Of a stretch of 64,000 bases of DNA, positions 22,560 through 56,176 are shown in pieces; the stretch's first letter is position 1; each line of letters starts with the position of its first letter. This DNA is from Bacteroidales bacterium. Its GTDB lineage: Bacteria; Bacteroidota; Bacteroidia; Bacteroidales; UBA932. The stretch covers positions 1 to 64,000 of the forward strand of contig JAFUZO010000008.1 in NCBI GenBank assembly GCA_017476575.1, in the 5' to 3' direction. The notes beneath the pieces were generated by a model. It searched no databases. It was not told where the DNA came from and was given only the letters and a program-made list of their open reading frames with translations. The position numbers and the translations under genes are program-made.

Positions 22560-22694
22560 ATGAAAAAGTACATGGAACCGGAAGTCCATCAGATGGATTT
22601 CCAACTTGAAAGACAGTTCTGCGCCAGTAACCTGGTTACGGGCCAGACGGAAAGCCAATCGTTTGATTTTGATGGAGAGGAGGATATCTTATGA
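22560..22694 (+). CDS. Small FCAS-motif peptide (44 aa) upstream of fimbrillin-like lipoprotein
   Basis: A short gene of 44 codons plus stop. It begins MKKYMEPEV, has ERQFCAS at residues 17-23, then a polar stretch and an acidic aromatic end (FDFDGEEDIL). No signal peptide or membrane segment is present. The TGA overlaps the start of the 22691 lipoprotein (ATGA), so the two are probably translationally coupled. Two relatives in the window (30180 and 56027) also directly precede fimbrillin-like lipoproteins, which is the main reason to call this a real gene. Function is unknown: secreted or modified peptide, partner of the lipoprotein, or leader peptide are all possible. Confidence 0.65.
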   Translation: MKKYMEPEVHQMDFQLERQFCASNLVTGQTESQSFDFDGEEDIL

Positions 22695-24967
22695 GAACGA
22701 GGTATGCCTTCTTGGCCGTGCTGGCGCTGGGTGCGTCGGTGGCCTGTGAGAAAGCGGAGACCCGGGTCTCCGAGACCGGTCTTCAGGAAGCGGTCAACTT
22801 TACCTTTAACGGCTCGTTGGGTGCATTCGAGACCAAGACGGCCATCGACGAGGCGGCTGACGGCCATGCCTCCGTCCTGTGGAAGGCCACGGACCAGGTG
22901 AGCGTCTTCGATGCCGAAGGCAACAACTGCCTGTTCGAAGCGACGGCAGCCGGTGCCACGACGACCCTTCGCGGGACGTTGGTCCCTTCTTCCGACGGGA
23001 CGTATTATGCCGTGTACCCCTACGCGGAAGGGAATACCGTCAGCGGGACGACCGTTACGACGACCCTGCCGTCGGAGCAGACGGTGGCCGCTCCCGGATT
23101 TGCTGACGGGGTGGTCGTCTCCGCCGCTACGGCTTCCGACCGTTCCTTCTCCTTCTCCAACCTCGCCTCGCTCGTGCGGTTCACCGTACCTTCCAGCGTG
23201 ACGGCCCTCCGGTCGGTCCGGCTGGAATCGATGGGCGGAACCGCCCTTGCCGGGACGTTCACAGTCAGTTTCGCCGGAACCACGCCGACCGTCGCCTCGA
23301 CATCCGGAGGAACGGATGCTGTGACGGTGGCGAAGGGGGATGGTACAGCGCTGGAGGCCGGTAACTATTATGCGGCCGTCCTTCCGGGCTCCCATCAACT
23401 CAAGGTCACGCTGACCGATCTGGACGGGCGGACCGCGGTCCGTCAGATGGACGCGCCCCAGTCGTTCGTGTCCTCCCATATCCGCAGCATCGGCACTGTG
23501 AAAGACGACACCTTCTACCAGGATGTCGAGTTCGTGCTGGGTTCCGCGGCGGTCGACGGCGAGACGGCGAAGACGGTCTACACGGGGGGCCTCCCGGCCG
23601 GCACCTACGCTGTCTCCATGCTGTTCCCGGACGGTTATGCCCATCGAGGCGACAAGGCCATCTATGCCATCAGCCCGGACTTCTCCTTCACGGTCGAGGA
23701 CAGGGACGGCATCCAGACCATCGCCGTCGCCAAGGAGGACTTGACGGCGCGTCATCTGCTCGTCCGATCCGGGGACAACCTCCAGGATGCCCTTGATGCC
23801 GCCGAGGCGGGTCTGGACGACATCTATGTGGGTGCCGGTACCTTCACCGGAAACTTCACCATGAAGGAAGACATCGACGTCACGGGCAGTTGGAACGACG
23901 ATTTCACCTCGACAGTGACCTATGAACCCCTCAAGTCCACAGGCGGCCTCACCACCATCCTCGACGGCAATGCTGCCGGCCGGGTCGTGAACCAGGCTGC
24001 CGACTTCGAGCAGGTGACGACTTGGAAGAATGTGGTCATCCGGAATGGCAGTACCGATACGGGGGCCGGTGCCTATCTGCGCAAGAATGGCGTCCTGGAC
24101 GGCTGCGAAGTTGCAGAGAACACGTCGACAGGCGATGGCGCCGGATTTATCGGCCTGAATTTCAGCACGGTGACGCGATGCTACATCCATGGGAATGTGG
24201 CAGGTGGTTCAGGCGGTGGCGGAATAACCCGCTATGTCGTTTCCTATTCGGTGGTGGACGGCAACCAGGCGAAAGGATCGGGCGGACTCTATGTATATGC
24301 TGGCGGTTATTCCGGCGAGTCCGTCGAACGTCCCAGGATATTCAACTGCAAGATAACCAACAACAAGGCCGTCAATGACAATGGTGGAGGCGTCCGGGCG
24401 AACAGAGGTTCCAACAATCCGCTTCCGATTCTGTATAACTTGCTGGTGGCAGGCAATACAGCAACCGGATGGGCGGGCTCCGGTATCCTGGTCAATGCCG
24501 GTTGCGTCTATAACTGTACAGTCATTGTGAATTATACCAGTGCGACCCAGGAGAATGCGAACGCCATCTGCAATCAGACGAATTATTCGACAGATACGGA
24601 AAAGGGGCGTATCCAGAATTGCATTTCCTACGGAAACTGGACGGCCGGCAAGGCGGCAGATACTGCGACACAGATCTACATGAACTCGACCGGTGGTCTC
24701 CGGAACAATTCGACCAGTGCCAATGGAATGTGGGCGGCCAAGTCTGCCTATCAGTATGTTACGGGAAAAGATGTGACCGAGCAGTTCTTTACTGATTTTG
24801 CCGGTGGAGATTACACCTTGTCCGCCGCCGCTACCTGTGGTGCCAACGGAACCCTCAACGGGTTGAGCGGCCTATGGTCCATCCTTCCGAAGACCGACCT
24901 GGATGGAAACAACCGGTTGAATGCGGACGGCACAATCGGGCGGGGATGCTATCTGTTCCAGCACTGA
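22691..24967 (+). CDS. Lipoprotein with fimbrillin-like N-terminus and beta-helix C-terminus
   Basis: A 758-residue lipoprotein with a lipobox-like SVAC (Cys19). Residues about 30-260 resemble the Mfa/fimbrillin-like family (ETKTAIDE, VLWKATDQVSVFDAEG). Residues about 265-350 are a linker beta domain. Residues about 355-758 form a right-handed beta helix (RHLLVRSGDNLQDALDAAE, GTFTGNFTMKEDIDVTGSWN, GAYLRKNGVLDGCEV) and end in choice-of-anchor-like GRGCYLFQH. The helix start is very similar to that of 19422. It is coupled to the small peptide gene before it. An imperfect hairpin at 25031-25070 follows the gene. Confidence 0.85.
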   Translation: MRTRYAFLAVLALGASVACEKAETRVSETGLQEAVNFTFNGSLGAFETKTAIDEAADGHASVLWKATDQVSVFDAEGNNCLFEATAAGATTTLRGTLVPSSDGTYYAVYPYAEGNTVSGTTVTTTLPSEQTVAAPGFADGVVVSAATASDRSFSFSNLASLVRFTVPSSVTALRSVRLESMGGTALAGTFTVSFAGTTPTVASTSGGTDAVTVAKGDGTALEAGNYYAAVLPGSHQLKVTLTDLDGRTAVRQMDAPQSFVSSHIRSIGTVKDDTFYQDVEFVLGSAAVDGETAKTVYTGGLPAGTYAVSMLFPDGYAHRGDKAIYAISPDFSFTVEDRDGIQTIAVAKEDLTARHLLVRSGDNLQDALDAAEAGLDDIYVGAGTFTGNFTMKEDIDVTGSWNDDFTSTVTYEPLKSTGGLTTILDGNAAGRVVNQAADFEQVTTWKNVVIRNGSTDTGAGAYLRKNGVLDGCEVAENTSTGDGAGFIGLNFSTVTRCYIHGNVAGGSGGGGITRYVVSYSVVDGNQAKGSGGLYVYAGGYSGESVERPRIFNCKITNNKAVNDNGGGVRANRGSNNPLPILYNLLVAGNTATGWAGSGILVNAGCVYNCTVIVNYTSATQENANAICNQTNYSTDTEKGRIQNCISYGNWTAGKAADTATQIYMNSTGGLRNNSTSANGMWAAKSAYQYVTGKDVTEQFFTDFAGGDYTLSAAATCGANGTLNGLSGLWSILPKTDLDGNNRLNADGTIGRGCYLFQH

Positions 24968-25030
24968 ACAGGCGGTCGGTATTCATGAATATTTGTATAT
25001 GATTGATTTTCAGTATATTTCGTAGTCCGG

Positions 25031-25070
25031 CAAATCCTGACCCATACTCTTGGGGATGGGTTGGGATTTG
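25031..25070 (+). terminator. Hairpin terminator-like structure after the 22691 gene
   Basis: CAAATCC (25031-25037) pairs with GGATTTG (25064-25070), and ACCCAT (25040-25045) with ATGGGT (25056-25061). That gives 13 base pairs interrupted by a 2x2 internal loop, with a 10-base loop. No strong T-run follows (CTTGATTTG), so termination may be partial. The rest of the 187-base gap (24968-25154) is AT-rich and may hold a promoter for 25155, but no clear element is seen. Confidence 0.5.
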
Positions 25071-25154
25071 CTTGATTTGAAAGTAGTTGATTATTAGATT
25101 ATTGCATAATCGTTGAATCCCGACCCCGATGTTTTTTCAAACCAGGAGAAAGAA

Positions 25155-26084
25155 ATGCTGAAAATGTGGAAAACAGGGATGCTGGCGGCGATGGCGCTGT
25201 GCCTGCTGACGGCATCGCAATGCGGAAAGGACACCCCCGGACCGGGGGAGGAGCCGGAGCCGCCGGTGGAGATGGGCGTGGCGTTGAAGGCGGCGACGTT
25301 CAACATCCGGTTCGCGACGGCGTCCGATACCGGCGTGAAGGCGTGGTCGGCCCGCAAGGATGCCTGCCGGAGTGTCGTGGAACGCTACGGTTTCGATGTG
25401 TTCGGCATCCAGGAGGCCCTGGCCGTCCAGCAGGCCGACCTCCGGGAACTCTTGCCGGCCTACACCTTCCGCTTCGTGGGCCGGGATGACGGCCTCAACG
25501 GCGAGGCGGTGGGAATCGCCTGGCGGTCCGACCGCTTCGAGAGCGTGGAGGAAGGACGGTTCTGGCTGTCCCCCACGCCGGATGTGCCCAGCGGCTCAAC
25601 GGACTGGGGCGGCGTCGCCCGGCATCGGGTCGCCGTATGGAACCGCTTGAAAGAGAAGGATTCCGGACGGGAGTTCTACTTTCTGGCCACCCACCTCGAA
25701 GTGGGGGAGGATGTCGCTGCGGTCCGCACCCGGTCGGCGGAACTGATTATCGGGCGGGAGGCCGCCTTCAATCCGGACGGCCTGCCGGTCTTCGTCGTCG
25801 GCGACATGAACCCGGTCGCCCCGACGGAACCGGCCATGCGGACCTTCCGCACGGTCTACGTGGATGCCTGGCAGCAGGCCGAGGCGGACGGTGTCCGGGA
25901 GGGCCCCATCGGTTCCTACAACGGTTTCAACCCCGATGCGAACCTCGAAAGCCAGTCCAAGCGCGGCGACTACATCTTCTACCGGGGGGCCGTGTCCCTC
26001 GTGAAGTACAAGGCCGTCGACGACAAGTTCGCCGGGCAGTATCCCTCCGACCACATTCCCGTCATGGTGTTTGTCAACTTGTAG
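25155..26084 (+). CDS. EEP-family (endonuclease/exonuclease/phosphatase) lipoprotein
   Basis: A 309-residue secreted EEP-fold protein. The signal peptide ends LLTASQC, a poor lipobox because Q precedes Cys23. Motifs in order are ATFNIRF, FGIQE, ATHLEVG, GDMNPVAP, GDYIFY and PSDHIPV. The start at 25155 is set by an AGGAG at 25144-25148 spaced 6 bases away; the frame continues back to a TTG at 25113. It is a close paralogue of the 55054 protein in locus D (shared EGRFWLSPTPDV / KGRFFLSATPDV and AEADGVREG / AEAAGVREG). It lies within the long accessory run of locus B. Substrate unknown. Confidence 0.88.
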   Translation: MLKMWKTGMLAAMALCLLTASQCGKDTPGPGEEPEPPVEMGVALKAATFNIRFATASDTGVKAWSARKDACRSVVERYGFDVFGIQEALAVQQADLRELLPAYTFRFVGRDDGLNGEAVGIAWRSDRFESVEEGRFWLSPTPDVPSGSTDWGGVARHRVAVWNRLKEKDSGREFYFLATHLEVGEDVAAVRTRSAELIIGREAAFNPDGLPVFVVGDMNPVAPTEPAMRTFRTVYVDAWQQAEADGVREGPIGSYNGFNPDANLESQSKRGDYIFYRGAVSLVKYKAVDDKFAGQYPSDHIPVMVFVNL

Positions 26085-26086
26085 CG

Positions 26087-30179: not shown

Positions 30180-30341
30180 ATGATGACCCATATGCAGATA
30201 ACCAATCGTCCCGAGGCCCGAAGGCCCTATTGCCCGCCGGATGTCCATGCGACCCGGATCGCCATGGAAGAATGCTTTACGGCCAGTGCGCTCCAGGACA
30301 TGGGGGCGAACTCCCTCTATGAAGAAGAATTTGACGACTAA
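30180..30341 (+). CDS. Small Cys-containing peptide (53 aa) related to the FCAS peptides
   Basis: A short gene with ATG codons at 30180, 30183 and 30192 (53, 52 or 49 residues). From the first start it has MEECFTAS near residues 33-40 and an acidic end (YEEEFDD). This parallels the central ERQFCAS/ERNFCAS and acidic tails of the peptides at 22560 and 56027, with the motif order changed to CFTAS. A second Cys lies in RRPYCPPD. There is no signal peptide. It ends 11 bases before the fimbrillin/GLUG/EEP lipoprotein gene. The recurring position and shared pattern support it as real; the sequence match alone is weak. Confidence 0.55.
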   Translation: MMTHMQITNRPEARRPYCPPDVHATRIAMEECFTASALQDMGANSLYEEEFDD

Positions 30342-30352: not shown

Positions 30353-33300
30353 ATGAAGACAAGAGAATCCATTTTCCTCGGCATGGCCGCTGCGGCGCTG
30401 TGCCTCGGTTGCACGAAAGAAAACGACGCGCCGGAAGCCCGGCAGACGGTGACCATCACCGCCTCCATCCCGGAGACGGCCCCCGCGACGAAGGTCTCCT
30501 TCTCGGAACTGGAAGACGGTTCCGCCCTCGCCCTCGCCTGGGAGGCCGATGACGCCTTGACCGTGATCGGCTCCACGACGGAGACCTTCCGGATCCAGCC
30601 CGGATTCGAGGCACATGCCGCCACGTTCGATGGCAATGCGGTGTCCGGGTCCTCCTTCCATATCATCTATCCCGCTTCCCTTTCCAGCGTGGAAGCGGCC
30701 CTGGCCCGGAGTTACGCGGGACAGGTGCAGGACGGGAACGGAAGCATGGCCCATCTCCGCTACGACGCGATGCTCTACGGGGTGGATGACTACCGGGACA
30801 TCGCCTTCACCCCGGCCTGGGCCGCCGCCCACCAGGGCACCCTGTACCAGAACGCAGTCCTGAAGTTCCATCTCCAGTTGCCCGCCGACATCGAGACCGT
30901 GGAATCCATTTCGCTCAGCGCCGACGACGCCATCTTCTACTCCACCAATGCCGAGACGCCGAAGGTGGATGAACTGACCCTCACCCTGGAGAACGTCACG
31001 CCGGAGAACCGCATCGTGACGGCCTACCTGATGCTTTCCTGCCAGAGCGTGGAAATCGCCGAGGGACAGACCCTTACCGTTACGGTCAGCGGCGGCGGGG
31101 AGACCTGGTCCAAGTCCTTCACCCCGGGTGCGAAGCGCCTGGAAGGCGGCTGCCGCCACACCATCAAACTCTCCGGCTCCGGCTGGACGGACGAAGCGCT
31201 CTTCGCCGGCGGCACCGGCATCGAGTCCGATCCGTACATCATCACCAAGGCCAAGCATATCGACAATATGCGCAAGGTGCTGGATACGCAGAACAAGGCG
31301 ATGATGTGGTTCGAAATGGGGGACGATGTGGACATGTCGGCATATACCTCATGGTCGCCTTTCGCGACGTCTTCCAGTTATGTGAAGCAGATTACATTCG
31401 ATGGCAAGGGCCACAAGATCAAGAACTTCACCTGCGGAAGCGTCGGTATGTCCGGCCTTTTCGGAACGCTGGGCGGGAAGGTCTCCAACATCGAGTTCGT
31501 CGATGCTGTCCTTGCCCCGAACCGGAATGTCTCCGGCCTGGTTGCCGGTTACACCAAGAACGCCCGTATCGAGAACATCACCGGAAATGTGACCATCACC
31601 GCACAGGGCAACAACAAGGTAGGCGGCCTGGTCGGATACTTCGATTCCTCTTCCTCCCTCACGATGAAGGGATGCCATATGGATGTGTCCATCACGGCGG
31701 ATACCGATGCGCACGACCAGACGGGCGGCATGACCGGCGGCCTGGTCGGGTATGCCAATGCGTCCGGCTCGGTGCTGACGGTGGAAGATTGTTCGGTATC
31801 CGGTTCGCTGGTTTCCAGCAGCAAGGTGGGTGGCATTGTCGGTTATGCGACAGATGCCGAGGTATATATCGCCGGATGCTCGGTGTCCGCGACGGTCACC
31901 GGAACGGCCAAGCAGGCCACCGGGGGCGTTATCGGCTATTGGAAAGGGGCGGAAGACATGGGCATGATTTCGGATACGCATACCAGCGGGGACGTCCAGA
32001 ACGACGCTGGCGATGCAAACAATGTCTGCGTCGGCGGCATCGTCGGGCAGGTATGGGTCTATGCCTCTCTGCAAGGCTGCTCCTCTTCCGGAAAAATCGG
32101 GTCTGTCAACAAGAAGGACTGCAACGCGGGCGGCCTGATCGGCAAGGCGCAGGACAAGACCCGCATCGCGGATTGCTGGTCCACCTCGCAGGTCAATGCC
32201 GGCAACGGCGCTGCAGGCGGTCTGGTCGGACGGATCGCCCATGCGGGTTCGCTGGTCATGGACGCTTCGATTACGGGCAGTTATCACAGCATGGGTGATG
32301 TGACATTGAATTACGGAAAGTCCGGGTTGGGTGGTATCATCGGCGGTATCGAAGGCACCAGCGGCACTTTCCAACTGAAGGATTGCTGGACTTCCGGAAA
32401 TGTGAAGAGCAGTTGGGATGCCCGGGTTTCCCGTGTCGGCGGCCTGGTCGGAGCCGTGACCACTACGGGAATCACGGTCAGCATCGCCTCTTCCTGGTCG
32501 ACGACGACCGTACAGGCGGGCCACTGTGTCGGCGGCCTGGTCGGTGCCGTGCCGGGGACCAATGTCACCATCAAGGACTGCATCGCCTGGAATACCAAAG
32601 TGACGAGCAACAACAATTCCACGACAGAGTCGGAATACAAGTCGGCCGGTATGGTCGTCGGTTATGCCAACCCTGGCCTGACGGTCGGCGAGAACTACCG
32701 TCCGGCTTCCACGGGCAACATTTTCACGGACAAGATGGGCGGCACCGTCTATGAACATGCCTCCGTCAATCCGTTGACCGATGCGTCCGGCAATGCCCAG
32801 CCCACGGCGACGGCAGTCTCTCCCTACCATGGCAGCGGAACGGACGATTCCCTGGTCGAGACAGCCCGGTCGCTCGGCTGGGACGAGACGATATGGGATC
32901 TGGACCAGGATGTTCCCACCCTCAAGACGCAGGCTTCCTCCGGGGAGCCTGCTCCGTCTCCGGTCCTGTTGAAAGTGATGTCATTCAATGTCCGGGTCGC
33001 GTCGAAGGATGTCGGCACCGCGAATGACTGGGACCTCCGCAAGGCGGGCATCCCGCCGATGATAGCGGCCGGGAAACCGGTTGTCTTCGGGGTGCAGGAG
33101 GCCGATGCGGCGCAGATGGCGTGGCTCCAGGCGAATGTCTCCGGCTACGGCGCCTACGGCGTCGGACGGGATGACGGGGCTTCCGCCGGCGAGTTCATGT
33201 CCATCTTCTACGACGCCTCCCGCGTCTCGCTGCTCGAGAACGGCACGTTCTGGCTCTCCGAAACCCCTTCCCAGCCATCCTACGGCTGGGATGCGGCCTG

Positions 33301-33727
33301 CCGCCGGACGGCGACCTGGGCCATCCTCGAACTGAAATCCGAAGGGAAGCGCTTCTTCTATGTGAACACCCACCTGGACCACCAGGGCGAGACTGCCCAG
33401 GCCGAAGGGCTGAAACTCATCGTACAGAAGATCGCGGAACTGAATCCGCAGGCCTATCCTGCCGTCCTTACCGGCGATTTCAACATCAAACCCGACCATA
33501 CCGCCCTGTCCGTCCTCCGCGGCACGCTGAAGGACACCCGCGAGACCGCCCCGGTCTCCGACCACCTCAATACCTACAACGCCTGGGGCGGCACCGGCAA
33601 GATCATCGACTACATCTGGTGCACCGGTTTCTCCCGCATCCATTCCTACCACACCGTCACCGATGCCTACGCCGGCATCACCTACCTGTCCGACCACTAT
33701 CCCGTCACCGCCGTCCTCCGCTTCTGA
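30353..33727 (+). CDS. Giant lipoprotein: fimbrillin-like N-terminus, GLUG repeats, C-terminal EEP phosphodiesterase domain
   Basis: A 1124-residue lipoprotein, lipobox CLGC (Cys20). Residues about 25-285 are fimbrillin-like (ATKVSFSELEDG, LAWEADDALTVIG). Residues about 290-800 carry GLUG-type repeats with recurring GGLVGY/GGIVGYA/GGLVGAV cores and intervening CSVSG-type strands. Residues about 872-1124 form an EEP domain with MSFNVRV, FGVQE, NTHLDHQGE, GDFNIKPD, KIIDYIW and SDHYPV, all catalytic motifs present. The protein thus joins adhesin-like modules to a phosphodiesterase-fold enzyme at the cell surface. It ends at the terminator of 33782. Confidence 0.88.
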   Translation: MKTRESIFLGMAAAALCLGCTKENDAPEARQTVTITASIPETAPATKVSFSELEDGSALALAWEADDALTVIGSTTETFRIQPGFEAHAATFDGNAVSGSSFHIIYPASLSSVEAALARSYAGQVQDGNGSMAHLRYDAMLYGVDDYRDIAFTPAWAAAHQGTLYQNAVLKFHLQLPADIETVESISLSADDAIFYSTNAETPKVDELTLTLENVTPENRIVTAYLMLSCQSVEIAEGQTLTVTVSGGGETWSKSFTPGAKRLEGGCRHTIKLSGSGWTDEALFAGGTGIESDPYIITKAKHIDNMRKVLDTQNKAMMWFEMGDDVDMSAYTSWSPFATSSSYVKQITFDGKGHKIKNFTCGSVGMSGLFGTLGGKVSNIEFVDAVLAPNRNVSGLVAGYTKNARIENITGNVTITAQGNNKVGGLVGYFDSSSSLTMKGCHMDVSITADTDAHDQTGGMTGGLVGYANASGSVLTVEDCSVSGSLVSSSKVGGIVGYATDAEVYIAGCSVSATVTGTAKQATGGVIGYWKGAEDMGMISDTHTSGDVQNDAGDANNVCVGGIVGQVWVYASLQGCSSSGKIGSVNKKDCNAGGLIGKAQDKTRIADCWSTSQVNAGNGAAGGLVGRIAHAGSLVMDASITGSYHSMGDVTLNYGKSGLGGIIGGIEGTSGTFQLKDCWTSGNVKSSWDARVSRVGGLVGAVTTTGITVSIASSWSTTTVQAGHCVGGLVGAVPGTNVTIKDCIAWNTKVTSNNNSTTESEYKSAGMVVGYANPGLTVGENYRPASTGNIFTDKMGGTVYEHASVNPLTDASGNAQPTATAVSPYHGSGTDDSLVETARSLGWDETIWDLDQDVPTLKTQASSGEPAPSPVLLKVMSFNVRVASKDVGTANDWDLRKAGIPPMIAAGKPVVFGVQEADAAQMAWLQANVSGYGAYGVGRDDGASAGEFMSIFYDASRVSLLENGTFWLSETPSQPSYGWDAACRRTATWAILELKSEGKRFFYVNTHLDHQGETAQAEGLKLIVQKIAELNPQAYPAVLTGDFNIKPDHTALSVLRGTLKDTRETAPVSDHLNTYNAWGGTGKIIDYIWCTGFSRIHSYHTVTDAYAGITYLSDHYPVTAVLRF

Positions 33728-43892: not shown

Positions 43893-43900
43893 GTCGGCGG

Positions 43901-43908
43901 CAAAAATA
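43901..43908 (-). promoter_or_regulatory. Predicted -7 element for the locus C sigma gene
   Basis: On the minus strand the bases read TATTTTTG, matching TAnnTTTG, 9 bases upstream of the ATG at 43892. At the correct 19-base distance the -33 region reads TTTT (43928-43931), one base from TTTG. The very short distance to the start implies an almost leaderless transcript. The 185-base divergent gap (43893-44077) also holds the start region for locus D, where a weaker TACATTTA lies at 44065-44072. Confidence 0.45.
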
Positions 43909-44077
43909 GCAGGAAAAAACGAAAGAAAAAAGTGTTTTCCGCCTGTGCGTGAAGGCCGCCCCGCCCGTCTATGCGCCCGCCGTTTGTCGGAAAAATCTTG
44001 GGGGTGGTCGCAGGAAAATGCGTCTTTATAGATATAGACACTGGACCGATAACCGGAAATTCGCTACATTTACATCC

Positions 44078-44602
44078 ATGTCGACCGATGAAAGGATACT
44101 TCTGCAACAAGTATCGGAGGGGGATGAAACCGCCTTCCGTGAGGTGTTTGCGCACTACTACCCGAAGGTGAAGGTCTTCCTCGGCGAATTCATCGACAAT
44201 GAGGACGACGTCAAAGACCTTTCCCAGAACATCTTCGTCAAGGTCTGGCTCATGCGCGGCACCCTTTCGGAGGTGCGTTCGTTCGGTGCCTATCTCTACC
44301 GGATGACCCGCAACGCCGCCATCGACTACTGCAAGCGCCACAAGGTCAAGATTCCCCTCGCCGACGAGTACGAGGAACCGTCCTCCTATCCGCTGGACGA
44401 GGAGTTCTTCGCCCGGGAACTCTCCTGCCGGTATGCCGGCCGCGTGGACCGGATGCCCGGGAAGCGCCGTGAGGTCTTCCTGATGTCCCGGGTCGAGGGC
44501 AGATCCAACGCCGAGATTGCCGAAGCCCTCGGCATCACCAAGAAGACGGTCGAGAACCACATCAACGCCGCCCTCAAGGAACTCCGCAAGGTTTCCTCGT
44601 AA
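44078..44602 (+). CDS. ECF RNA polymerase sigma factor (locus D)
   Basis: A 174-residue ECF sigma factor divergently placed to the one at 43892. The sigma-2 region is FIDNEDDVKDLSQNIFVKVW (about 42-61), and the sigma-4 helix-turn-helix is NAEIAEALGITKKTVENHI near the C-terminus. The frame is open to 43949, but residues before MSTDERIL lack sense and start 44078 is the natural one. It heads the longest phosphodiester-related operon of the window. FecR follows 43 bases later. Confidence 0.93.
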   Translation: MSTDERILLQQVSEGDETAFREVFAHYYPKVKVFLGEFIDNEDDVKDLSQNIFVKVWLMRGTLSEVRSFGAYLYRMTRNAAIDYCKRHKVKIPLADEYEEPSSYPLDEEFFARELSCRYAGRVDRMPGKRREVFLMSRVEGRSNAEIAEALGITKKTVENHINAALKELRKVSS

Positions 44603-44645
44603 ATTCGCTTGGGTGCAGACGGCTCCGGGAAAGTCATAAAGGTGT

Positions 44646-45545
44646 ATGAAGACACAGAAATTTCCCGGATGGGACCGGATCGACGGTTCCGCCGTCACCG
44701 AAGAAGAGATCGATGCGGCATTCCAGGCCGTGATGGCCCGCTCGCGCAAGATCGAGGTGTCCCGGACCTGGCACCGCCCGCAGCAACGTCGTCCCTGGGG
44801 GCGGTGGATTGTTGTCGCCGCCGCCGTCGCGACCCTCCTGGCCGTTCCCTATGCCGCCTGGCGCTATGTGCAGGACCATGAGCCCGACCCTGTCGCCCTG
44901 ACTTACACCCAGTTCTCGACCTCCCGCGGCGAAATCGCCGAGGTGGTGCTGCCCGACCAGTCCAAGGTCGTCCTGAACGCCGAGTCCGTGCTCATCTACC
45001 CCGAGCAGTTCGGCGCCGAGCGCTCCGTCTACCTGTCCGGCGAGGCCATCTTCGACGTGACCGCCAGCGAGGAGCACCCCTTCTACGTCCGCACCGCCGA
45101 CGTGACGGTCAAGGTCCACGGCACCCGCTTCAACGTCAGCGCCTGGTTCGACGAGGACGCCGTCAGCACGACCCTCTGCCGCGGCGTCATCACCGCCTGG
45201 CCCAACGGAGCGGAAGGGCAGGCCGTCACCCTGGTCCCGAACCAGAACTACACCTATGACCGGGCGACCGGAACGGCGGCCGTCACCCAGGCCAACGCCC
45301 TCGAAGCCGTCGCCTGGGAAAGCGGCGAGCTGTGTTTCCGGTCTGCCTCCATCCACAGCCTCATCCGCCAAGTCGAGCGCCGCTACGATGTCAGCATCTT
45401 CCTGACCAGCAGCAAGTACGACCAGGCCCTCATCACGGCCAAGTTCATCCACGGGGAGACCCTGGACGAACTGATGGACGCCGTCTGCATGATCGTCCCG
45501 GGCATGACCTACGTCCGGGACGGGAATGCCATCTACCTGAAATAA
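44646..45545 (+). CDS. FecR-family anti-sigma factor (locus D)
   Basis: A 299-residue regulator with a short cytoplasmic N-terminus (1-51), a membrane segment at about 53-72 (IVVAAAVATLLAVPYAAW) and a periplasmic FecR domain. The domain carries EVVLPDQSKVVLNAES, GEAIFDVTASEEHPFYV and KVHGTRFNVSAW. A DUF4974-like C-terminus follows (FRSASIHSLIRQVERRY). LPDQ replaces the more usual LPDG. It should hold the upstream sigma factor until the STN domain of the SusC at 45559 signals. Confidence 0.92.
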   Translation: MKTQKFPGWDRIDGSAVTEEEIDAAFQAVMARSRKIEVSRTWHRPQQRRPWGRWIVVAAAVATLLAVPYAAWRYVQDHEPDPVALTYTQFSTSRGEIAEVVLPDQSKVVLNAESVLIYPEQFGAERSVYLSGEAIFDVTASEEHPFYVRTADVTVKVHGTRFNVSAWFDEDAVSTTLCRGVITAWPNGAEGQAVTLVPNQNYTYDRATGTAAVTQANALEAVAWESGELCFRSASIHSLIRQVERRYDVSIFLTSSKYDQALITAKFIHGETLDELMDAVCMIVPGMTYVRDGNAIYLK

Positions 45546-45558
45546 TCCCTCTTTCTCT

Positions 45559-48500
45559 ATGAAAAGAATCCTCTATCTGGTCTGTCTGCTGACCGGCTTC
45601 CTATGGACGGGGAGCCTGTCGGCACAGCATCCGGTCATCACCTTCCCGAAGGACAGGATGACGACCGGAGAAGCGCTCGGCGTGGTCGAGGCCCAGAGCG
45701 GCCTGTCCATCGCCTACAACGAGAACCTGCTGGACCTGGGCCGCATGGTCTCCACCCCCAGCGGAAAGAACCTCATGGACATCCTTCCGCTCATCCTGGA
45801 AGGCACCGGCACCGAAGCCGTCGTCAAGGGGAAGATCATCCTGATTGTCAAGAAGGCCGCCCCGGCCCCCGCCGGCCCCTGCTCCGGCGTGGTCGTGGAC
45901 AAGGCCGGACCCGTCGTCGGCGCCGTCGTGCTGGTCCAGGGGACCGGCCGGGCGGCGACCACCGACCTCGACGGCGCCTTCACCGTGCAGGCCGGCCGCG
46001 GGGACGTCCTCGTGGTCTCCATGCTCGGCTACCAGGAGGCCGCCTACACGGTCGGGACGCGCACCCGCGACATCCAGATCCTCCTTCAGGACGACATCAC
46101 CCTGCTCGAAGAGTCGGTCGTGGTGGGCTACGGCACCATGCAGCGGCGCGACATCACCTCCTCCATCGCGACCTACAAGCCCGCCGAGGCAGGGGAGCGG
46201 CAGGTGCTGAGCCCGGACGCCCTGCTCCAGGGCCGCGTGCCGGGCGTCAACGTGACCGCCGCCTCCGGAACCCCCGGCGGCAAGTCCCGCGTGAGCATCC
46301 GCGGCATCGGTTCCCTGACCGCCGGCAACGAACCGCTCTATGTGGTCGACGGCGTGCCCATGTCGAACACCTCCGGTGATGCCGGGGCCTACGGCGGCGA
46401 GTCCCTGAGCGGCCTGAGCGACATCAACCCGGCCGACATCGAGTCCGTCCAGATCCTCAAGGATGCGGCCTCGGCCGCCATCTACGGCTCCCGGGGTACG
46501 AACGGCGTCATCATCATCACGACCAAGAAGGGGACGAAAGGCGCCCCGAAACTTACGGCGGACGCCTCCTTCGGCCTCAGTTGGCTGCCGAACCTCTCGA
46601 AGTTGAAGGTGGCCGATGCCGATCTCTACCTGGAGGTCCAGAACGAGGCCATCGACAACTACAACCTCCAGACCGGCAGCGCCATCGCCCGCCTGGAGAA
46701 CCCCTACCCGGGCAAGCCGCAGTTCAGCTGGGTGGATATGGTCTTCCGCACCGCCAAGACCTGGCAGGCCGACGTTTCCGTGTCCGGCGGCAGCGAGAAC
46801 GCCAACTACTACATCTCCGCCCATGCCAAGCAGAACGAGGGCGTGGGCATCGGCTCCCTCTACGAGAAATACGGGGTCAAGTCCAACGTCAACGCCGATG
46901 TCAAGCCCTGGCTCTCCGTCGGCATGACCCTGAACCTGAGTTACACCAACGCCAACCGCGTCCCGGACGGCAACATCGGCACCTCCATGCTCACCCATGC
47001 CCTGGAGCACCGGCCCTGGGACACCCCGTTCCGCCCGGACGGCACCTATTCGCTGAAGGACTCCGACCTGCTGCACTACAACCTGCTCCAGGCCCTCAAC
47101 GAGCAGAAGATCTACAACAAGACCTACCGGGCCTACGGTACGGCTTTCGCCCGGTTCAAGTTCACGAAGGACCTGGACTTCAAGACCTCCTTCGGCGGCG
47201 ACTTCATGTCGGCGGAGGACCATGTCTACTACTCGTCCGACCACATGTACGGCAACTCCGCCGGTGTCCTCACCGACTCCCGGAAGAACTACGCGTCCAT
47301 CGTCGTGGACAACATCCTCAGTTACCGGCACGCCTTCGGCGGACTCTCTCTCGATGCGATGGCCGGCCATTCCTTCCAGATGGACCAGAGTTCCACCGCC
47401 CTCCAGCGAGGCCAGGGCTTCCCGTCCAAGTCGCTCGACGTCAACTCCGTCGCGGCCGAATTCACCTCCGTCACCAGCGGCCTGAGCGCCTGGGCCATCC
47501 AGTCGTTCCTGTTCCGGACCACGCTGAACTGGAACGACCGCTACCTGGTCACGGTCAACGCCCGCGCCGACGGCTCCTCGAAGTTCGCCAAGAAGAACCG
47601 CTACGGCTTCTTCCCGTCCCTCTCCTTCGGCTGGAACCTGTCCGAAGAGCCGTTCTGGACCTATGCCGGCACGAATGCCAAGGTCCGCGCCAGTTACGGT
47701 GCGACCGGCAACCAGGGCAGCATCGGCGCCTACGCCTGGCAGGCCCTCGCCAACGGCGGTTTCAACTACATGAACGAGAACGGCCTTGCGGTGATGACCC
47801 AGGGCAATCCCGACCTCCAGTGGGAGAAGGCCGACCAGTACGACCTCGGCACTGACCTCTCGTTCTTCCAGGGCGCCCTGACCTTCACGGCCGACGCCTT
47901 CCTGAAGGATACCGGCAACCTCCTGTACAACATGCCGACCGCCGCGACGACCGGCTTCACGCAGTACACCTGCAACATCGGCTCCATGCGGAACACCGGC
48001 CTGGAACTGGCTGTCGGAGGCAACCTCGGCAAGGGGGACTTCCACTGGAAGGGCGACTTCAACATCTCCTTCATCCGCAACCGGCTGACCTCCCTGATCG
48101 GGGATGACGACATCCTCAAGACCGATGACTACCATGCCCTGAAGGTCGGCGAGGAAGTCGGCAGTTTCTACATGATCAAGATGACCGGCATCTACCAGAG
48201 CGACGACGAGGTGCCCACCTACCTGTACGACAACTACGGCGTCCGCGCCGGCGACTGCATCTACGAGGATGTCAACGGCGACGGCGACATCACCACGGCC
48301 GACGACGCCCAGTTCGTGGGCTCGGCCAACCCGAAGTTCTCCGGCGGCTTCTCCAACGCCTTCACCTACAAGGGATTCGACGCCTCCATCTTCTTCACGT
48401 TCTCCTACGGGGCCCAACTCTATGAGTACTGGACCGGCGGCCTGCGCCTCGGCAACGGCAACTGGCCCGCGCAGGAGTCCGAGGCCCTCTCCCGCTGGAC

Positions 48501-48834
48501 CGGCCCCGGCACCACCAACACCACCCCGCGCGCCATCTACGGCTACACCTGGAACTCCACCATGTTCAAGACGACCCGTTTCCTGCACGACGCCTCTTAC
48601 CTGCGCCTGCGCAGCGCTTCCCTCGGCTACACCCTGCCGGGCAGCCTCACCCGCCGCATCGGCATCGACCGGCTCCGGGTCTACGTCCAGGGCGACAACC
48701 TCTGGCTCTGGAGCCCGTTCCGCTTTCTCGACCCGGAAGTGAACACCTCCATGGATGCGACCAAGATGGGTCTCGACTGCATGTGGATCCCGCAGCCGCG
48801 TGCCGTCACCTTCGGTGTCAACCTCAGATTCTAA
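45559..48834 (+). CDS. SusC/RagA-family TonB-linked outer-membrane transporter with STN domain (locus D)
   Basis: A 1091-residue TonB-dependent importer. It has a signal peptide (about 1-23, ending SLSAQ), an STN domain (about 26-98), and a carboxypeptidase-regulatory-like domain (about 112-180; RAATTDLDGAFTVQ). The plug contains EESVVVGYGTMQRRDITSSI and LKDAASAAIYGSRGTNGVII. The barrel ends TFGVNLRF. The RRDIT version of the TonB-box-proximal motif differs from KKVNLTG in loci B and C, marking a separate SusC subgroup. It is paired with the SusD at 48840. Confidence 0.95.
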   Translation: MKRILYLVCLLTGFLWTGSLSAQHPVITFPKDRMTTGEALGVVEAQSGLSIAYNENLLDLGRMVSTPSGKNLMDILPLILEGTGTEAVVKGKIILIVKKAAPAPAGPCSGVVVDKAGPVVGAVVLVQGTGRAATTDLDGAFTVQAGRGDVLVVSMLGYQEAAYTVGTRTRDIQILLQDDITLLEESVVVGYGTMQRRDITSSIATYKPAEAGERQVLSPDALLQGRVPGVNVTAASGTPGGKSRVSIRGIGSLTAGNEPLYVVDGVPMSNTSGDAGAYGGESLSGLSDINPADIESVQILKDAASAAIYGSRGTNGVIIITTKKGTKGAPKLTADASFGLSWLPNLSKLKVADADLYLEVQNEAIDNYNLQTGSAIARLENPYPGKPQFSWVDMVFRTAKTWQADVSVSGGSENANYYISAHAKQNEGVGIGSLYEKYGVKSNVNADVKPWLSVGMTLNLSYTNANRVPDGNIGTSMLTHALEHRPWDTPFRPDGTYSLKDSDLLHYNLLQALNEQKIYNKTYRAYGTAFARFKFTKDLDFKTSFGGDFMSAEDHVYYSSDHMYGNSAGVLTDSRKNYASIVVDNILSYRHAFGGLSLDAMAGHSFQMDQSSTALQRGQGFPSKSLDVNSVAAEFTSVTSGLSAWAIQSFLFRTTLNWNDRYLVTVNARADGSSKFAKKNRYGFFPSLSFGWNLSEEPFWTYAGTNAKVRASYGATGNQGSIGAYAWQALANGGFNYMNENGLAVMTQGNPDLQWEKADQYDLGTDLSFFQGALTFTADAFLKDTGNLLYNMPTAATTGFTQYTCNIGSMRNTGLELAVGGNLGKGDFHWKGDFNISFIRNRLTSLIGDDDILKTDDYHALKVGEEVGSFYMIKMTGIYQSDDEVPTYLYDNYGVRAGDCIYEDVNGDGDITTADDAQFVGSANPKFSGGFSNAFTYKGFDASIFFTFSYGAQLYEYWTGGLRLGNGNWPAQESEALSRWTGPGTTNTTPRAIYGYTWNSTMFKTTRFLHDASYLRLRSASLGYTLPGSLTRRIGIDRLRVYVQGDNLWLWSPFRFLDPEVNTSMDATKMGLDCMWIPQPRAVTFGVNLRF

Positions 48835-48839
48835 CGACC

Positions 48840-50144
48840 ATGAAACGCACGATATCCCTCATCCTGACGGTCCTGACCCTGGCTTCCTGCGACAGCCTGC
48901 TGGACCAGTATCCGCACAACGCCGTCTCCAGCGACAGCCTCACCGAAGACGATGCGCACCTGCTGATGGTGGGCGTGTACAACATCGCCCAGTACAAGCC
49001 GACCTTCAACGGCTATGCCCTCTTCGACATTATCGGCGGCGACCTCATCCGCCCGGGCGCGACCTCGACCAACACCCCGGCCCTCGTCATCCAGGGCGCC
49101 ATCGCCCCGGACCTCAGCATCGTCGCCAGCCCGTGGAACGGCTATTACGCCGGCCTCTACCAGATCAACAACTTCATCCTCGCGGTGGACCGCCTGCCCG
49201 CCTCCAAGGACAAGGACGAGATGCTGGGCACCGGCCACTTCTTCCGCGGCCTGTACTACTACAACGTCGTCGCCCGCTGGCGCGACGTCCCCATCGTGAC
49301 GGAACCGACGACAGAAGACGTCCCGCAGACCCCCGAGGCAGAGGCCTGGGAGTTCGTCGCCTCCGAATTCCGCCTGGCGATGGAGATGGCCCCCGACTTT
49401 ACGACGAAGAACTATGTCTCCAAGGACGCCGCCAAGGCCCTCCTGGCCCGGACCTATCTCGCGATGGGGAAGAAGGCGGAGGCTGCGGCCCTCGCCGAGG
49501 AGGTCATCGCCAGCGGCCGGTTCGCCCTTGCCGACTTCTCCGAGATCTTCCGGGGCGTGGCCAACAAGGAGGAGATATTCACCTTCTCCAACCTGCTGGA
49601 GGAGGGGAGTTTCAACATCGGCTCCTACTACTATACGAAAGAGTCTTCCGTCGGCGGCAGCTACACGTTCTGCCCCACCGAGGAGGCGATGGACATGTTC
49701 CAGCATATCGACAAGCGCCGCACCGTCTCGGTGGATATCCAGGGCAGCAACAATGTCGTGAACAAGTACTGCCAGGGCGATGCGGGACATGACCCGATCT
49801 ATATCACCCGGCTCGCGGAGATGTACCTTATCAGCGCCGAGGGGCAGGGCTTGGCCCGCGGGATCGACCGGCTGAACGAGCTGCGCCGTTTCCGGGGGCT
49901 GCCCGCTGTGTCTCCTGCCACGGAGGATGCCTTCCTGGATGCCGTCCTGGACGAACGCCGCCTGGAACTCTTCGGCGAAGGCTTCCGCTGGTTCGACCTC
50001 GTGCGCACCGGCAAGTACGAGGCGAAGGTGGGCGTGGACCACAAGTTCACCGTCCTGCCGATTCCCGCCCGTGAACTTACGTTGAACAAACTGTTGAAGC
50101 AGAACCCGCTCTGGGTCGCCTCCACCCCGACAGAGGAGGAATAG
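48840..50144 (+). CDS. SusD/RagB-family substrate-binding lipoprotein, compact type (locus D)
   Basis: A 434-residue lipoprotein, lipobox LASC (Cys17), with DSLLDQYPHN near the N-terminus. The C-terminal signatures are DERRLELFGEGFRWFDLVRT and VLPIPARELTLNKLLKQNP. It is some 120-150 residues shorter than the other three SusD proteins. That is typical of the subgroup with smaller ligands, but this is only an inference. The start at 48840 follows the susC stop by 5 bases; the frame open to 48783 lies in susC. Confidence 0.93.
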   Translation: MKRTISLILTVLTLASCDSLLDQYPHNAVSSDSLTEDDAHLLMVGVYNIAQYKPTFNGYALFDIIGGDLIRPGATSTNTPALVIQGAIAPDLSIVASPWNGYYAGLYQINNFILAVDRLPASKDKDEMLGTGHFFRGLYYYNVVARWRDVPIVTEPTTEDVPQTPEAEAWEFVASEFRLAMEMAPDFTTKNYVSKDAAKALLARTYLAMGKKAEAAALAEEVIASGRFALADFSEIFRGVANKEEIFTFSNLLEEGSFNIGSYYYTKESSVGGSYTFCPTEEAMDMFQHIDKRRTVSVDIQGSNNVVNKYCQGDAGHDPIYITRLAEMYLISAEGQGLARGIDRLNELRRFRGLPAVSPATEDAFLDAVLDERRLELFGEGFRWFDLVRTGKYEAKVGVDHKFTVLPIPARELTLNKLLKQNPLWVASTPTEEE

Positions 50145-52875: not shown

Positions 52876-54122
52876 TGAAAAAGTCCCTCTATATCGCACT
52901 CCTGCTGCCGGTCGTGCTCACCAGCTGCAAGGAAGACAAGTACACCGCCCGCGTGACCGGACTCCGGCTCGTGTCCGTGGACCCGAAGAACGGCTATCCG
53001 GGCGACCTGGTGACCCTCCTGGGCCGCAACTTCTCCACCGACCCGGCCGAGGACATCGTCACCATCGGCGGCGTCCGCGCCCAGGTCCTGGAGGCCTACA
53101 AGGACCGCCTCCTCCTGATCCTTCCGGAGAACGAGCCGGGCCAGTACCCGATTGCGGTCACCGCCCCGTCCGGTTCGCTGGAGGGCCTGTCGGTGAACTA
53201 CCTCAAGACCCCGGACCATGAGTACCTGGTGACGACGGTCGTCGGGCAGCAGGGCGTCCGCACGTGTGTCGACGGGGTCGGCACCGGCGCCTCGACCTAC
53301 CTGCCGACCGGCATCAACAAGGCCCCCGACGGCACCCTCTGGTTCACCGACCGCGGGGGCAACCGGGTTCGCCGCATCGCCCCCGACCTCACCGTGACGA
53401 CCGTCGTGGACGCCTCCGCCTCCGGCGCCGCCGTATGGCAGGGCTGCTTCGACGCGGCGGGCAACTACTGGTTCAACGACAAGGCCAACGGCACCCTCAA
53501 ACGCTACAACCCCGCCGACGGCAAGACCGTCGCGGTCGCGACCGGCATGAAGTCCCCGATGAACGTCGCCGTGGATGCGGCTGGCAACATCTACGTCCCG
53601 GCCCGCGACGAGAAGGTCGTCTACCGGTTCGACAAGGACGGCGGCAACAAGACCGTCTTCGCCGAGGTCCCGGACGGTCCGGCCTACATCACCTTCGACC
53701 CGCAGGGCAACCTGGTCTCCGGTACGCAGAACGGCTACAAGATTGTCTCCATCGCCCCGGACGGCACGCTGCGGACCATCGTCGGCGACGGCGTGAAGGG
53801 TGACGAGGCCTCCGACGGCCTGGAGGGCGACCCGCTCACCGCGACCATCGGCTCCGCCCAGGGCATCGACTTCGACTCCAAGGGCGTGATGTACTTCACG
53901 GACATGAAGTTCCACAATGTCCGGCGGCTGGTCCCGGATGCCTCCGGCGACTATGCGAAAGGCACGCTGGAGACCATCATGGGCGGCGTCAAGGGCTATG
54001 CCGACGGCAAGGGGTTGAACGTGAAGTTCAACGAGCCGGACGGCCTGCTGGTCTACGACGACAACACCCTGTACGTCTGCGACGCGCAGAACTGTCTCAT
54101 CCGCAAGGTGAACATCCGATGA
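52875..54122 (+). CDS. IPT/TIG and NHL-propeller lipoprotein, single TIG
   Basis: A 415-residue lipoprotein, lipobox LTSC (Cys18). It has one TIG domain (about 25-115; VDPKNGYPGDLVTLLGRNF) and an NHL propeller (about 120-415; LPTGINKAPDGTLWFTDR, GNRVRRI, YVCDAQNCLIRKV). It appears to be a shorter duplicate of the 51100 protein: both contain LPDNEPGQYP/LPENEPGQYP in a TIG domain, and both propellers contain KSPM(D/N) and DEK segments. Start and stop overlap the neighbours by 1 and 4 bases. Confidence 0.88.
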   Translation: MKKSLYIALLLPVVLTSCKEDKYTARVTGLRLVSVDPKNGYPGDLVTLLGRNFSTDPAEDIVTIGGVRAQVLEAYKDRLLLILPENEPGQYPIAVTAPSGSLEGLSVNYLKTPDHEYLVTTVVGQQGVRTCVDGVGTGASTYLPTGINKAPDGTLWFTDRGGNRVRRIAPDLTVTTVVDASASGAAVWQGCFDAAGNYWFNDKANGTLKRYNPADGKTVAVATGMKSPMNVAVDAAGNIYVPARDEKVVYRFDKDGGNKTVFAEVPDGPAYITFDPQGNLVSGTQNGYKIVSIAPDGTLRTIVGDGVKGDEASDGLEGDPLTATIGSAQGIDFDSKGVMYFTDMKFHNVRRLVPDASGDYAKGTLETIMGGVKGYADGKGLNVKFNEPDGLLVYDDNTLYVCDAQNCLIRKVNIR

Positions 54123-55057
54123 AGAAGGCCTGGCTCCTGGCGCTGTTGCTGGCGGTCCTCCCGGGCTGCCGGCCCTCCGCCGTTCAGAAGACCCCGTTCC
54201 GCCTCCTGTTCTGGAACATCCAGAACGGGATGTGGTCCGGGCAGGGCGACCACTACGACGCCTTCGTGGACTGGGTGAAGGCCCAGGACCCGGACGTGTG
54301 CGTCTGGTGCGAGGCCCGCACCATCTACTACACCGGGACCCGGGACAAGATGCCCGTCGAGGAGAAATACCTCGTGGAGCACTGGCCCGAACTGGCCGCC
54401 CGCTACGGACATCCGTACGTGTTCGTCGGCGGCATGCGGGACAACTACCCGCAGGTCATCACCTCCAAGACGCCCCTGCACGGGATGGCACGGATTACGG
54501 GTGCCGAGCCCGACAGCCTGGTCTCCCACGGGGCCGGCTGGGCGCAGGTGACGGTGGCGGGCCGGACCCTCAACCTCGTCTCGCTCCACACCTGGCCGCA
54601 TCCGTATGCCTACGGGGCCGCCGACCCGGCCGCTTCGAAGGCCGCCCACGGCGGCGACGCCTACCGGCGGATGGAACTTCAGTACATCATCCGGCACACC
54701 CTCGGCGGCGCTGTGGACGGGAACTGGCTCGTGATGGGCGACTTCAACTCGATTTCCCGGACCGACAACGCCTTTTACGGCCTTCCGGAGGATGATTCCA
54801 AGTTCTGGGCACAGGACTACATGCTGGAGGAGACGCCCCTTCTGGACATCATCAAGGCGCGCTATCCCGACGAGGTCATCCTGTCGACCATCGACGACAC
54901 ACGCTACGACTATGTCTTCTGCACCCCGGACCTGTATCCGGCCGTCACGGAGGCGCGCATCGTCCGCGACCCTTACACCGACCCGGTCCGCGACCCCGCC
55001 ACCCGTTTCTGCCACCCCTCCGACCACCTGCCTGTCCTTGTCGATTTCATGCTATGA
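54119..55057 (+). CDS. EEP-family lipoprotein, divergent member (locus D)
   Basis: A 312-residue lipoprotein, lipobox LPGC (Cys17). The EEP motifs are LFWNIQNG, VCVWCEAR (catalytic E kept although the usual Q is replaced by C), SLHTWPHPYAYG, GDFNSISR, TRYDYVFCT and PSDHLPV. It is clearly a different subfamily from the 55054 and 25155 proteins. The long HTWPHPYAYGAADP insert near the active site may shape substrate choice. Overlaps of 4 bases with both neighbours show tight coupling. Confidence 0.87.
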   Translation: MKKAWLLALLLAVLPGCRPSAVQKTPFRLLFWNIQNGMWSGQGDHYDAFVDWVKAQDPDVCVWCEARTIYYTGTRDKMPVEEKYLVEHWPELAARYGHPYVFVGGMRDNYPQVITSKTPLHGMARITGAEPDSLVSHGAGWAQVTVAGRTLNLVSLHTWPHPYAYGAADPAASKAAHGGDAYRRMELQYIIRHTLGGAVDGNWLVMGDFNSISRTDNAFYGLPEDDSKFWAQDYMLEETPLLDIIKARYPDEVILSTIDDTRYDYVFCTPDLYPAVTEARIVRDPYTDPVRDPATRFCHPSDHLPVLVDFML

Positions 55058-56022
55058 GAAAATCCTGTCTTTTTATCCCGGCCATCCTATCCCTGGCCTT
55101 TTCCTGCGGGAAGGCGTCCCCGGAAACCCCGGCACCCGACCCCGGACCGGATGCGCCGGCCGTGGAACCGCAGCCCTCGGGGCGGTCTGCCCAGGTGACG
55201 GTGGCCACGTACAATATCCGCTGTCTCAAGAGCGAGGACACCGGCTACAAGGCCTGGTCCTGGCGGAAGGGGAACGTCTGTGCCCTCGTGGAGGACGAGG
55301 CGTTCGGCGTGGTCGGCTTCCAGGAGGTAAGCGAAGGGATGGTGAAAGACCTTACGGACGGCCTTCCCGCATATGACTTCCATCTCGTCGGGCGGGAAGA
55401 CGGCGTCTCCAAGGGAGAGTCTGTCGGCATCGTCTGGCGGAAGGATGCGTTCCGGGCGGTCTCCAAGGGCCGTTTCTTCCTGTCGGCTACGCCGGATGTG
55501 GTGTCGAGCCCTTATCCCGGATGGACGTCGTCCGACCCCGGGCGGAACCGTGTCGTGGCCTGGGCGGTGTTGACCCACCTGGAATCGGGCGTGTCTTTCC
55601 TGGCCCTGTCCACGCACCTGGAGGTCGGAAAGACGGATGAGGTGGTCATCCGCCAGAAGTCGGCGGAACTCATCGCGGCGATGCTTCCTTCGCTGAATCC
55701 GTCGGGGCTGCCCGTCATCCTCGTCGGCGACATGAATTCGAAGCCGACGGAGACCAGCGCCGCGATATTCCGGAAGACCTTCACCGACACCTATCTCGCC
55801 GCCGAGGCGGCCGGGGTCCGGGAGGGATGGCGCGGCTCTTTCAACGGGCACAACTACACCCCGGACGACTATCTGGACACCCAGGGGCTCCGGATCGACT
55901 ACATCTATATCCGGGGAACGGTCTCGGTCGACCGCTACCGGGTCGTCGACACCCGGTACGGCGGGTACTATCCCTCGGACCATTGCCCCGTCATGACACG
56001 ATTGACCCTACAAACACAATAA
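55054..56022 (+). CDS. EEP-family lipoprotein (locus D), paralogue of the 25155 protein
   Basis: A 322-residue lipoprotein, lipobox AFSC (Cys18), with a Pro-rich linker (ETPAPDPGPDAPA). EEP motifs: ATYNIRC, VGFQE, STHLEVG, GDMNSKPT, LRIDYIYIR and SDHCPV. The match to the locus B protein at 25155 is close over the whole domain. It follows a different EEP subfamily member, so locus D exports two phosphodiesterase-fold proteins. The small FCAS peptide begins 4 bases after its stop. Confidence 0.9.
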   Translation: MRKSCLFIPAILSLAFSCGKASPETPAPDPGPDAPAVEPQPSGRSAQVTVATYNIRCLKSEDTGYKAWSWRKGNVCALVEDEAFGVVGFQEVSEGMVKDLTDGLPAYDFHLVGREDGVSKGESVGIVWRKDAFRAVSKGRFFLSATPDVVSSPYPGWTSSDPGRNRVVAWAVLTHLESGVSFLALSTHLEVGKTDEVVIRQKSAELIAAMLPSLNPSGLPVILVGDMNSKPTETSAAIFRKTFTDTYLAAEAAGVREGWRGSFNGHNYTPDDYLDTQGLRIDYIYIRGTVSVDRYRVVDTRYGGYYPSDHCPVMTRLTLQTQ

Positions 56023-56026
56023 CACG

Positions 56027-56176
56027 ATGAAGAAGAAAGTCTATCAGGCTCCGTCGCTCCGGCGGGCACCGCTGCAGGCAGAGCGGAATTTCTGCGCCTC
56101 CCTCTACACCGATGGGGAGAATGGACTCGAAGGTTGGAACTGGGATTCCGACGAGACGGACTGGGAACTGAAATAA
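56027..56176 (+). CDS. Small FCAS-motif peptide (49 aa) upstream of fimbrillin-like lipoprotein
   Basis: A 49-residue peptide starting MKKKVYQAPSLRRAPL, with ERNFCAS at residues 19-25 and a Trp/acidic end (GWNWDSDETDWELK). The ERxFCAS core is shared with the peptide at 22560, and the MKK...P N-terminus is also alike. No signal peptide or membrane segment is present. Its stop sits within the strong ribosome binding site (AGGAGG, 56176-56181) of the next gene, so ribosomes finishing it could reinitiate there. It lies in an operon between an EEP lipoprotein and a fimbrillin/NHL lipoprotein. Function unknown. Confidence 0.68.
   Translation: MKKKVYQAPSLRRAPLQAERNFCASLYTDGENGLEGWNWDSDETDWELK

Follow-up and report, generated by a model that had tools for sequence, protein, structure and literature searches.

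What are the very short genes that stand immediately in front of fimbrillin-like lipoprotein genes in a genome of the Bacteroidales? The question is raised by three such genes in a 64,000-nucleotide stretch of contig JAFUZO010000008.1 from a Bacteroidales bacterium (assembly GCA_017476575.1), analysed here as a whole and referred to as the window. On balance, the evidence favours the view that the encoded peptides are precursors of a system that depends on a RiPP recognition element (RRE) and resembles those for ribosomally synthesized and post-translationally modified peptides (RiPPs), with one central machine serving many scattered substrates.

A sequence-only reading of the window had reported three open reading frames (ORFs) of 44, 49-53 and 49 residues, separated by -4, +11 and +13 bases from the start of a following gene for a lipoprotein with a fimbrillin-like N-terminal module, and all of this is borne out by the sequence. 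In the list below, A4 denotes a profile of the lipoprotein N-terminal module and E values refer to a hidden Markov model (HMM) built from the peptides of other genomes only.

22560..22694, + strand: peptide 1 ORF, 44 aa, MKKYMEPEV...ERQFCAS, then an acidic tail; cross-genome HMM E=3.5e-8
22560..22628, + strand: leader-like segment of peptide 1, from YMEPEV (YxxPx[LVI]) through FCAS; putative leader/tail boundary
22691..24967, + strand: fimbrillin-module lipoprotein of peptide 1, 758 aa; A4 206 bits (itself an A4 seed)
30192..30341, + strand: peptide 2 ORF, 49 aa, YCPPDV...EECFTAS, then an acidic tail; cross-genome HMM E=0.0075
30353..33727, + strand: fimbrillin-module lipoprotein of peptide 2, 1124 aa; A4 131 bits (A4 seed)
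56027..56176, + strand: peptide 3 ORF, 49 aa, MKKKVYQAPSL...ERNFCAS, then an acidic, Trp-rich tail; cross-genome HMM E=1.8e-10
56027..56101, + strand: leader-like segment of peptide 3, from YQAPSL (YxxPxL) through FCAS; putative leader/tail boundary
56190..58007, + strand: fimbrillin-module lipoprotein of peptide 3, 605 aa; A4 192 bits (A4 seed)

The stop codon of peptide 1 overlaps the next start (ATGA at 22691, gap -4), and the lipoprotein genes of peptides 2 and 3 begin after +11 nt (at 30353) and +13 nt (at 56190). For peptide 2 the ATG at 30192 is preferred by the profile, a start at 30180 giving 53 aa. The proteins encoded 3′ of the peptides carry a lipobox, for example AILAGCTKEND, and the three window peptides themselves match no Pfam or NCBIfam model. 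The cross-genome HMM nevertheless ranks exactly these three first among the 486 small ORFs of the window (E values of 1.8e-10, 3.5e-8 and 7.5e-3, the next ORF having E>2), so the trio is not a chance resemblance.

The three genes, initially described as a family of three, are real members of a larger one. A first profile built from seven peptides found twelve places in the 2.62-Mb host assembly, where A4 gave 43 matches, about 38 of them taken as genes. A short ORF with a [YF]xxP motif lies upstream of 23 of these approximately 38 lipoprotein genes, one gene having two in tandem and the motif variants being one YxxT and one YxxA; ten of the peptides were missed by the first profiles and were chosen from upstream short ORFs by position and motif. 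The host family is about 24 short peptides, mostly located just 5′ of a fimbrillin-module lipoprotein gene. The claim that no other lipoprotein gene is paired in this way is correct for the window itself, but a further pair is found on the same contig (C59:84683).

All members share a plan in which a conserved N-terminal half (Y/FxxPx[LVI] ... E..F..S) is followed by a variable acidic tail, an example of the leader being MKKKVYQAPSLRRAPLQAERNFCAS. The FCAS core on which the earlier description was centred is one variant of this looser core, whereas the acidic, often aromatic tail proved general: all 58 collected tails are net negative, 39 of the 58 have a Trp within the last 6 residues, and the tails are almost Cys-free. 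The aromatic Y/F at position 0 is present in 58/58 and the proline at +3 in 56/58 of the collected peptides, counts that hold partly by construction since most of the peptides were found by profile; as a background, [YFW]xxP occurs in 78 of the 486 small window ORFs. Substitution patterns in related genomes indicate a translated, constrained product under purifying selection. The ratio of nonsynonymous to synonymous substitution (dN/dS) is 0.13-0.21 pairwise among four paralogous peptides of one genome (G017), with their tails below 0.1, and 0.29 and 0.40 for two further pairs; these values come from a small number of short comparisons at rather high dS, none of them with a window peptide. The synonymous bias by which the family was to be judged is present over the whole range of about 0.13-0.40.

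Two variants of the family were also observed. A longer type of 58-63 aa with a VETTGQEV-like insert occurs in four host pairs (L007, L014, L015 and L016), with a NusG/UpxY-like gene directly upstream of the L007, L014 and L016 pairs. In genus g113 (genomes G147 and G329; L240 2660-2818 and L239 6100-6267) the tails end in an RGxxWxxYE-like sequence, and the peptides, several of them in G147, follow another gene rather than precede a fimbrillin gene.

The link with the lipoproteins extends beyond the host. A survey at E<=0.01 gave 24 loci from 60 relatives, and at 23 of these a lipoprotein start lies close behind the peptide. The spacing of most peptide-lipoprotein pairs ranges from an overlap of -4 to a gap of about +25 nt. 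Homologues scattered with no tie to fimbrillin-like genes, the outcome that would have spoken against the family, were thus not what the profile search returned from relatives. Order-wide the linkage persists in a looser form, with a fimbrillin-like or other lipoprotein downstream at about 9 of 16 non-own loci. The assignment of the module follows from profile comparisons: among solved structures A4 matches 4k4k (E=6e-10) and that of 'Fimbrial protein BF1861', 3sy6 (E=1e-3), hhalign aligns the module with Mfa_like_1 proteins at a probability of 96.7 (E=3e-10), and the L016 lipoprotein passes the PF13149 cut-off. Pfam alone makes no fimbrillin call in the three window lipoproteins, and a structure of the module predicted from the three window sequences had a mean pLDDT of 34.4 and was left unused. 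The C-terminal parts vary. The 30353-33727 protein has a GLUG repeat (PF07581, 2.2e-10) and, C-terminally, an Exo_endo_phos domain (PF03372, 5.6e-13), the 56190-58007 lipoprotein has a weak C-terminal NHL match and weakly matches the Mfa1 family NF038041 (E=6e-4), and weak right-handed beta-helix matches are seen outside the window examples. A tie to canonical pilus operons was considered and rejected, as a peptide stands upstream in 1 of 30 Pfam-found Mfa_like_1 loci (L091); since Mfa_like_1 loci are mostly without a peptide, it is with one sub-type of the fimbrillin-module lipoproteins that the peptides are paired. When orthologues of the peptide-3 locus were sought at the DNA level, nothing but the adjacent Exo_endo_phos-type gene was matched, so peptide-lipoprotein pairs turn over fast.

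The identity of the machine is suggested by the leader. YxxPxL is conserved in lasso precursor leaders, and the bsf lasso cluster combines this leader motif with a discrete PqqD-type B1 protein (PMC10368454), while Y/W/LxxP is common to several RRE groups (PMC12710340). The host genome has one PqqD over the cut-off (52 bits), its sole clear PqqD/RRE, located in a gene cluster as follows.

Host RRE cluster, in the order S26-type peptidase, PqqD, NTP_transf_5, ABC transporter

The fold of the RRE was predicted from 40 sequences for the L247 protein, which is 85% identical to that of the host, with a pLDDT of 90.9, and the nearest structures to the model are the TbiB1-leader complex 5v1u (Z 11.2) and the lasso B1-leader complex 6jx3 (Z 11.0), the next unrelated one scoring 8.1. 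The modelled fold and the YxxPxL motif in the peptide sequences both match a candidate lasso B1-type RRE that would recognise such leaders. Across 12 clusters the motifs GxSMxPF and HR[IV] are conserved in the peptidase, with an invariant Ser and His that are presumably those of the Sec11-like S26 type. The host ABC protein has ABC_membrane and ABC_tran domains, with no C39 among its listed Pfam matches. In other lineages the cluster also holds an HPr-kinase-like gene, K, whose conserved His...GTGKST...NDD pattern resembles the His-Lys-Asp-Asp motif found in lasso tailoring kinases. Past a few other genes downstream of the host cluster (L152 6131-9273, G000:C45) lie genes for a chain-length protein of Wzc-like type and for a CpsB-like phosphatase, and in genome G294 (L183) the RRE cluster likewise lies among polysaccharide genes.

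Peptide and RRE cluster are physically joined in four other genomes, from distant Bacteroidales, where they share a same-strand run. At L229 the peptide, the fimbrillin-module lipoprotein, K, the peptidase, RRE, NTP_transf_5 and ABC genes follow each other on a single strand; at L196 the order is peptide, lipoprotein, ABC, peptidase, RRE, a 246-aa ORF and K; and at L183 it is RRE, NTP_transf_5, K, two polysaccharide-export-like genes, peptide, lipoprotein, an OmpA-type protein, peptidase and ABC. L185 has no lipoprotein, and the peptide heads a run of K, peptidase, RRE, NTP_transf_5 and ABC. As to selection, the loci of G294, G214, G054 and G074 were taken because a peptide or fimbrillin gene was known on the RRE contig, L229 after a second survey had put both on one contig, and L196 from the RRE list, its peptide being unknown beforehand.

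The co-occurrence across genomes points in the same direction, with all p values uncorrected for kinship. PqqD is present in 12 of 12 peptide-positive genomes as against 183 of 295 (p=0.003). A profile of the cluster-type RRE splits 18 genomes (>=67 bits) from the rest (<=57), and this type occurs in 13 of 16 peptide-positive genomes (Fisher p=3e-16); several of the genomes that seeded the profile had been chosen for holding peptides, and with the RRE seed genomes removed the count is 3/6 (p=1e-4), whereas removal of both peptide and RRE seed genomes leaves 0 overlaps and no power. In 5 of 13 genomes no more than 10 kb separates a peptide from the RRE, where 0.36 would be expected from the detected counts. 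Finally, genome G202 (99% complete) has no PqqD match and contains a peptide-like frame in which neither a start codon (ATG, GTG or TTG) nor the stop is preserved, a single case of natural loss of the peptide where PqqD is absent.

Several observations weigh against this association. In the host the RRE cluster lies apart from the peptides, and K is found neither beside the host cluster, where the contig starts, nor beside that of the closest relatives L247-L258. Among 80 RRE loci, all from uncultured Bacteroidales and mostly from ruminant gut metagenome-assembled genomes, most keep peptidase, RRE and ABC together, but few have a peptide in the vicinity of the RRE, and in 0/80 does one directly flank the cluster. 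The co-occurrence tests ignore phylogeny, and true peptide counts are probably about twice those detected, which weakens the 10-kb co-location without removing it. The peptide-positive genomes G275 (65% complete) and G329 (89% complete) are without cluster-type RRE, while G218, G114 and G087 have the RRE type and show no peptide at threshold. The absence of direct flanking in the 80 related loci implies that the cis linkage is lineage-specific, and action in trans is assumed in the host clade because the peptides are unlinked to the RRE cluster there.

Taken together, the peptides combine, by their sequence, a leader that contains an RRE-binding motif with a C-terminal part that varies, and an RRE protein is associated with them through its fold, the same-strand runs and co-occurrence, although unlinked in the host. 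The assignments that follow are candidate ones for binding, modification, cleavage site, export and the role of the lipoprotein. First, the lasso-B1-type RRE would bind the YxxPx[LVI] leader in trans. Next, K and the NTP_transf_5 enzyme may tailor the tail, for instance by phosphorylation followed by the transfer of a nucleotidyl or hexose group. Pseudomycoidin is an example of this kind, in which phosphorylation is carried out by PsmK and the addition of hexose requires PsmN (PMC9266682). The S26-type Ser/His peptidase could then cut close to F..S, and the acidic tail would be exported by the ABC transporter. Finally, the tight, often overlapping pairing would supply a cognate tail to each fimbrillin-fold surface lipoprotein as a ligand, cap or complementing strand; this delivery is the least certain step of the proposal. 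That the exported, modified tail is a dedicated partner of the downstream lipoprotein, with dozens of peptide-lipoprotein pairs displayed per cell, is a tentative extension that we regard as doubtful.

Of the three roles suggested in the sequence-only reading, a RiPP-like precursor is now the best supported, a lipoprotein partner holds as a description of gene organisation, and a pure coupling leader is unlikely. The partner role can also be conceived in another way, with the peptide as an unmodified cytoplasmic protein that binds or escorts the precursor of the lipoprotein, or adjusts how it is translated or exported, and with the RRE cluster unrelated. The way in which the peptide gene strictly adjoins or overlaps the start of the lipoprotein gene, the lack of a recognizable signal peptide and the unlinked RRE cluster of the host all fit such an adaptor, yet four lineages join peptide and cluster, L185 even without a lipoprotein, YxxPx[LVI] is a known RRE-binding motif, the family co-occurs with the cluster RRE type, and the peptide is degenerate in the PqqD-less G202, so that this explanation appears unlikely. 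Still less probable is a translational-coupling leader that loads ribosomes for the lipoprotein gene and whose amino-acid sequence is irrelevant. The short spacing of -4 to about +25 nt agrees with it, as does the finding that 14 of 15 host lipoprotein genes without a peptide sit at most ~80 nt behind another long same-strand ORF (the exception is L127). Against it stand the dN/dS values, the conservation of the peptide sequence across families of the order, the conserved RRE-type motif, and peptides at L024 and L185 with no lipoprotein downstream. True lasso peptides with an unlinked B2 protease and cyclase would account for the YxxPxL leader, the lasso-B1-like RRE and the homologues of K, N and D genes, but are very improbable, since Transglut_core3 (PF13471), the B2 protease, reaches 13.2 bits at best against a cut-off of 26 in a host genome that is 97% complete, no B2 or cyclase gene was noted in the clusters examined (L229, L196, L183 and L185), the asparagine-synthetase-like cyclase C having had no dedicated genome-wide search, and inspection of the tails by eye reveals no Asp/Glu at a consistent position for ring formation.

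Among the other genes of the window, Exo_endo_phos-type, lipoprotein-like proteins are encoded at 25113-26084, 54119-55057 and 55054-56022, the domain fused to the fimbrillin module in 30353-33727 being the fourth of its kind. The region 43299-50144 contains sigma-factor-like, FecR-like, SusC-type (45559-48834) and SusD-like genes, which suggests uptake operons regulated by extracytoplasmic function sigma factors.

On the precursor reading, a peptidase-RRE-transporter cluster that many gut Bacteroidales have in common is given a proposed set of substrates, and short proteins whose window members match no Pfam or NCBIfam model are given a testable role; if it is true, surface lipoproteins would be linked to a pathway of peptide export that handles dozens of substrates in each genome.

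The closest known counterparts are lasso systems with K and N tailoring genes (bsf, paeninodin and pseudomycoidin), which share the YxxPxL leader, the discrete PqqD-type B1 RRE, the HPr-kinase-like K (here in most lineages), a nucleotidyltransferase and an ABC exporter. In contrast to these, no Transglut_core3 B2 passes the cut-off in the host genome and no cyclase was noted in the clusters examined, an S26-type peptidase being present instead, and many precursors appear to be served in trans, mostly beside a surface lipoprotein and with acidic tails that have a Trp near the end. The GG-leader/PCAT RiPP clusters of Bacteroidales likewise combine small precursors with an ABC exporter, but neither the GG motif nor a C39 peptidase domain was seen in the peptides or the host ABC protein, RRE and S26-type peptidase being present instead, and fimbrillin is unmentioned in their description (PMC10352776). 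The prochlorosins, in which one promiscuous ProcM acts on many precursors (PMC10783134), resemble the present family, as far as the parts of that account considered here go, in the single central machine inferred for many precursors and in the conserved leader and variable tail; they differ in their lanthionine chemistry and Nif11-type leaders, no lanthionine synthetase being seen in the cluster described here, and a pairing with lipoprotein genes is not reported in those parts. The downstream lipoproteins, finally, share their N-terminal module with the type V pilin/fimbrillin superfamily (FimA, Mfa1 and Mfa_like_1), from which they are set apart as single lipoproteins with added C-terminal domains.

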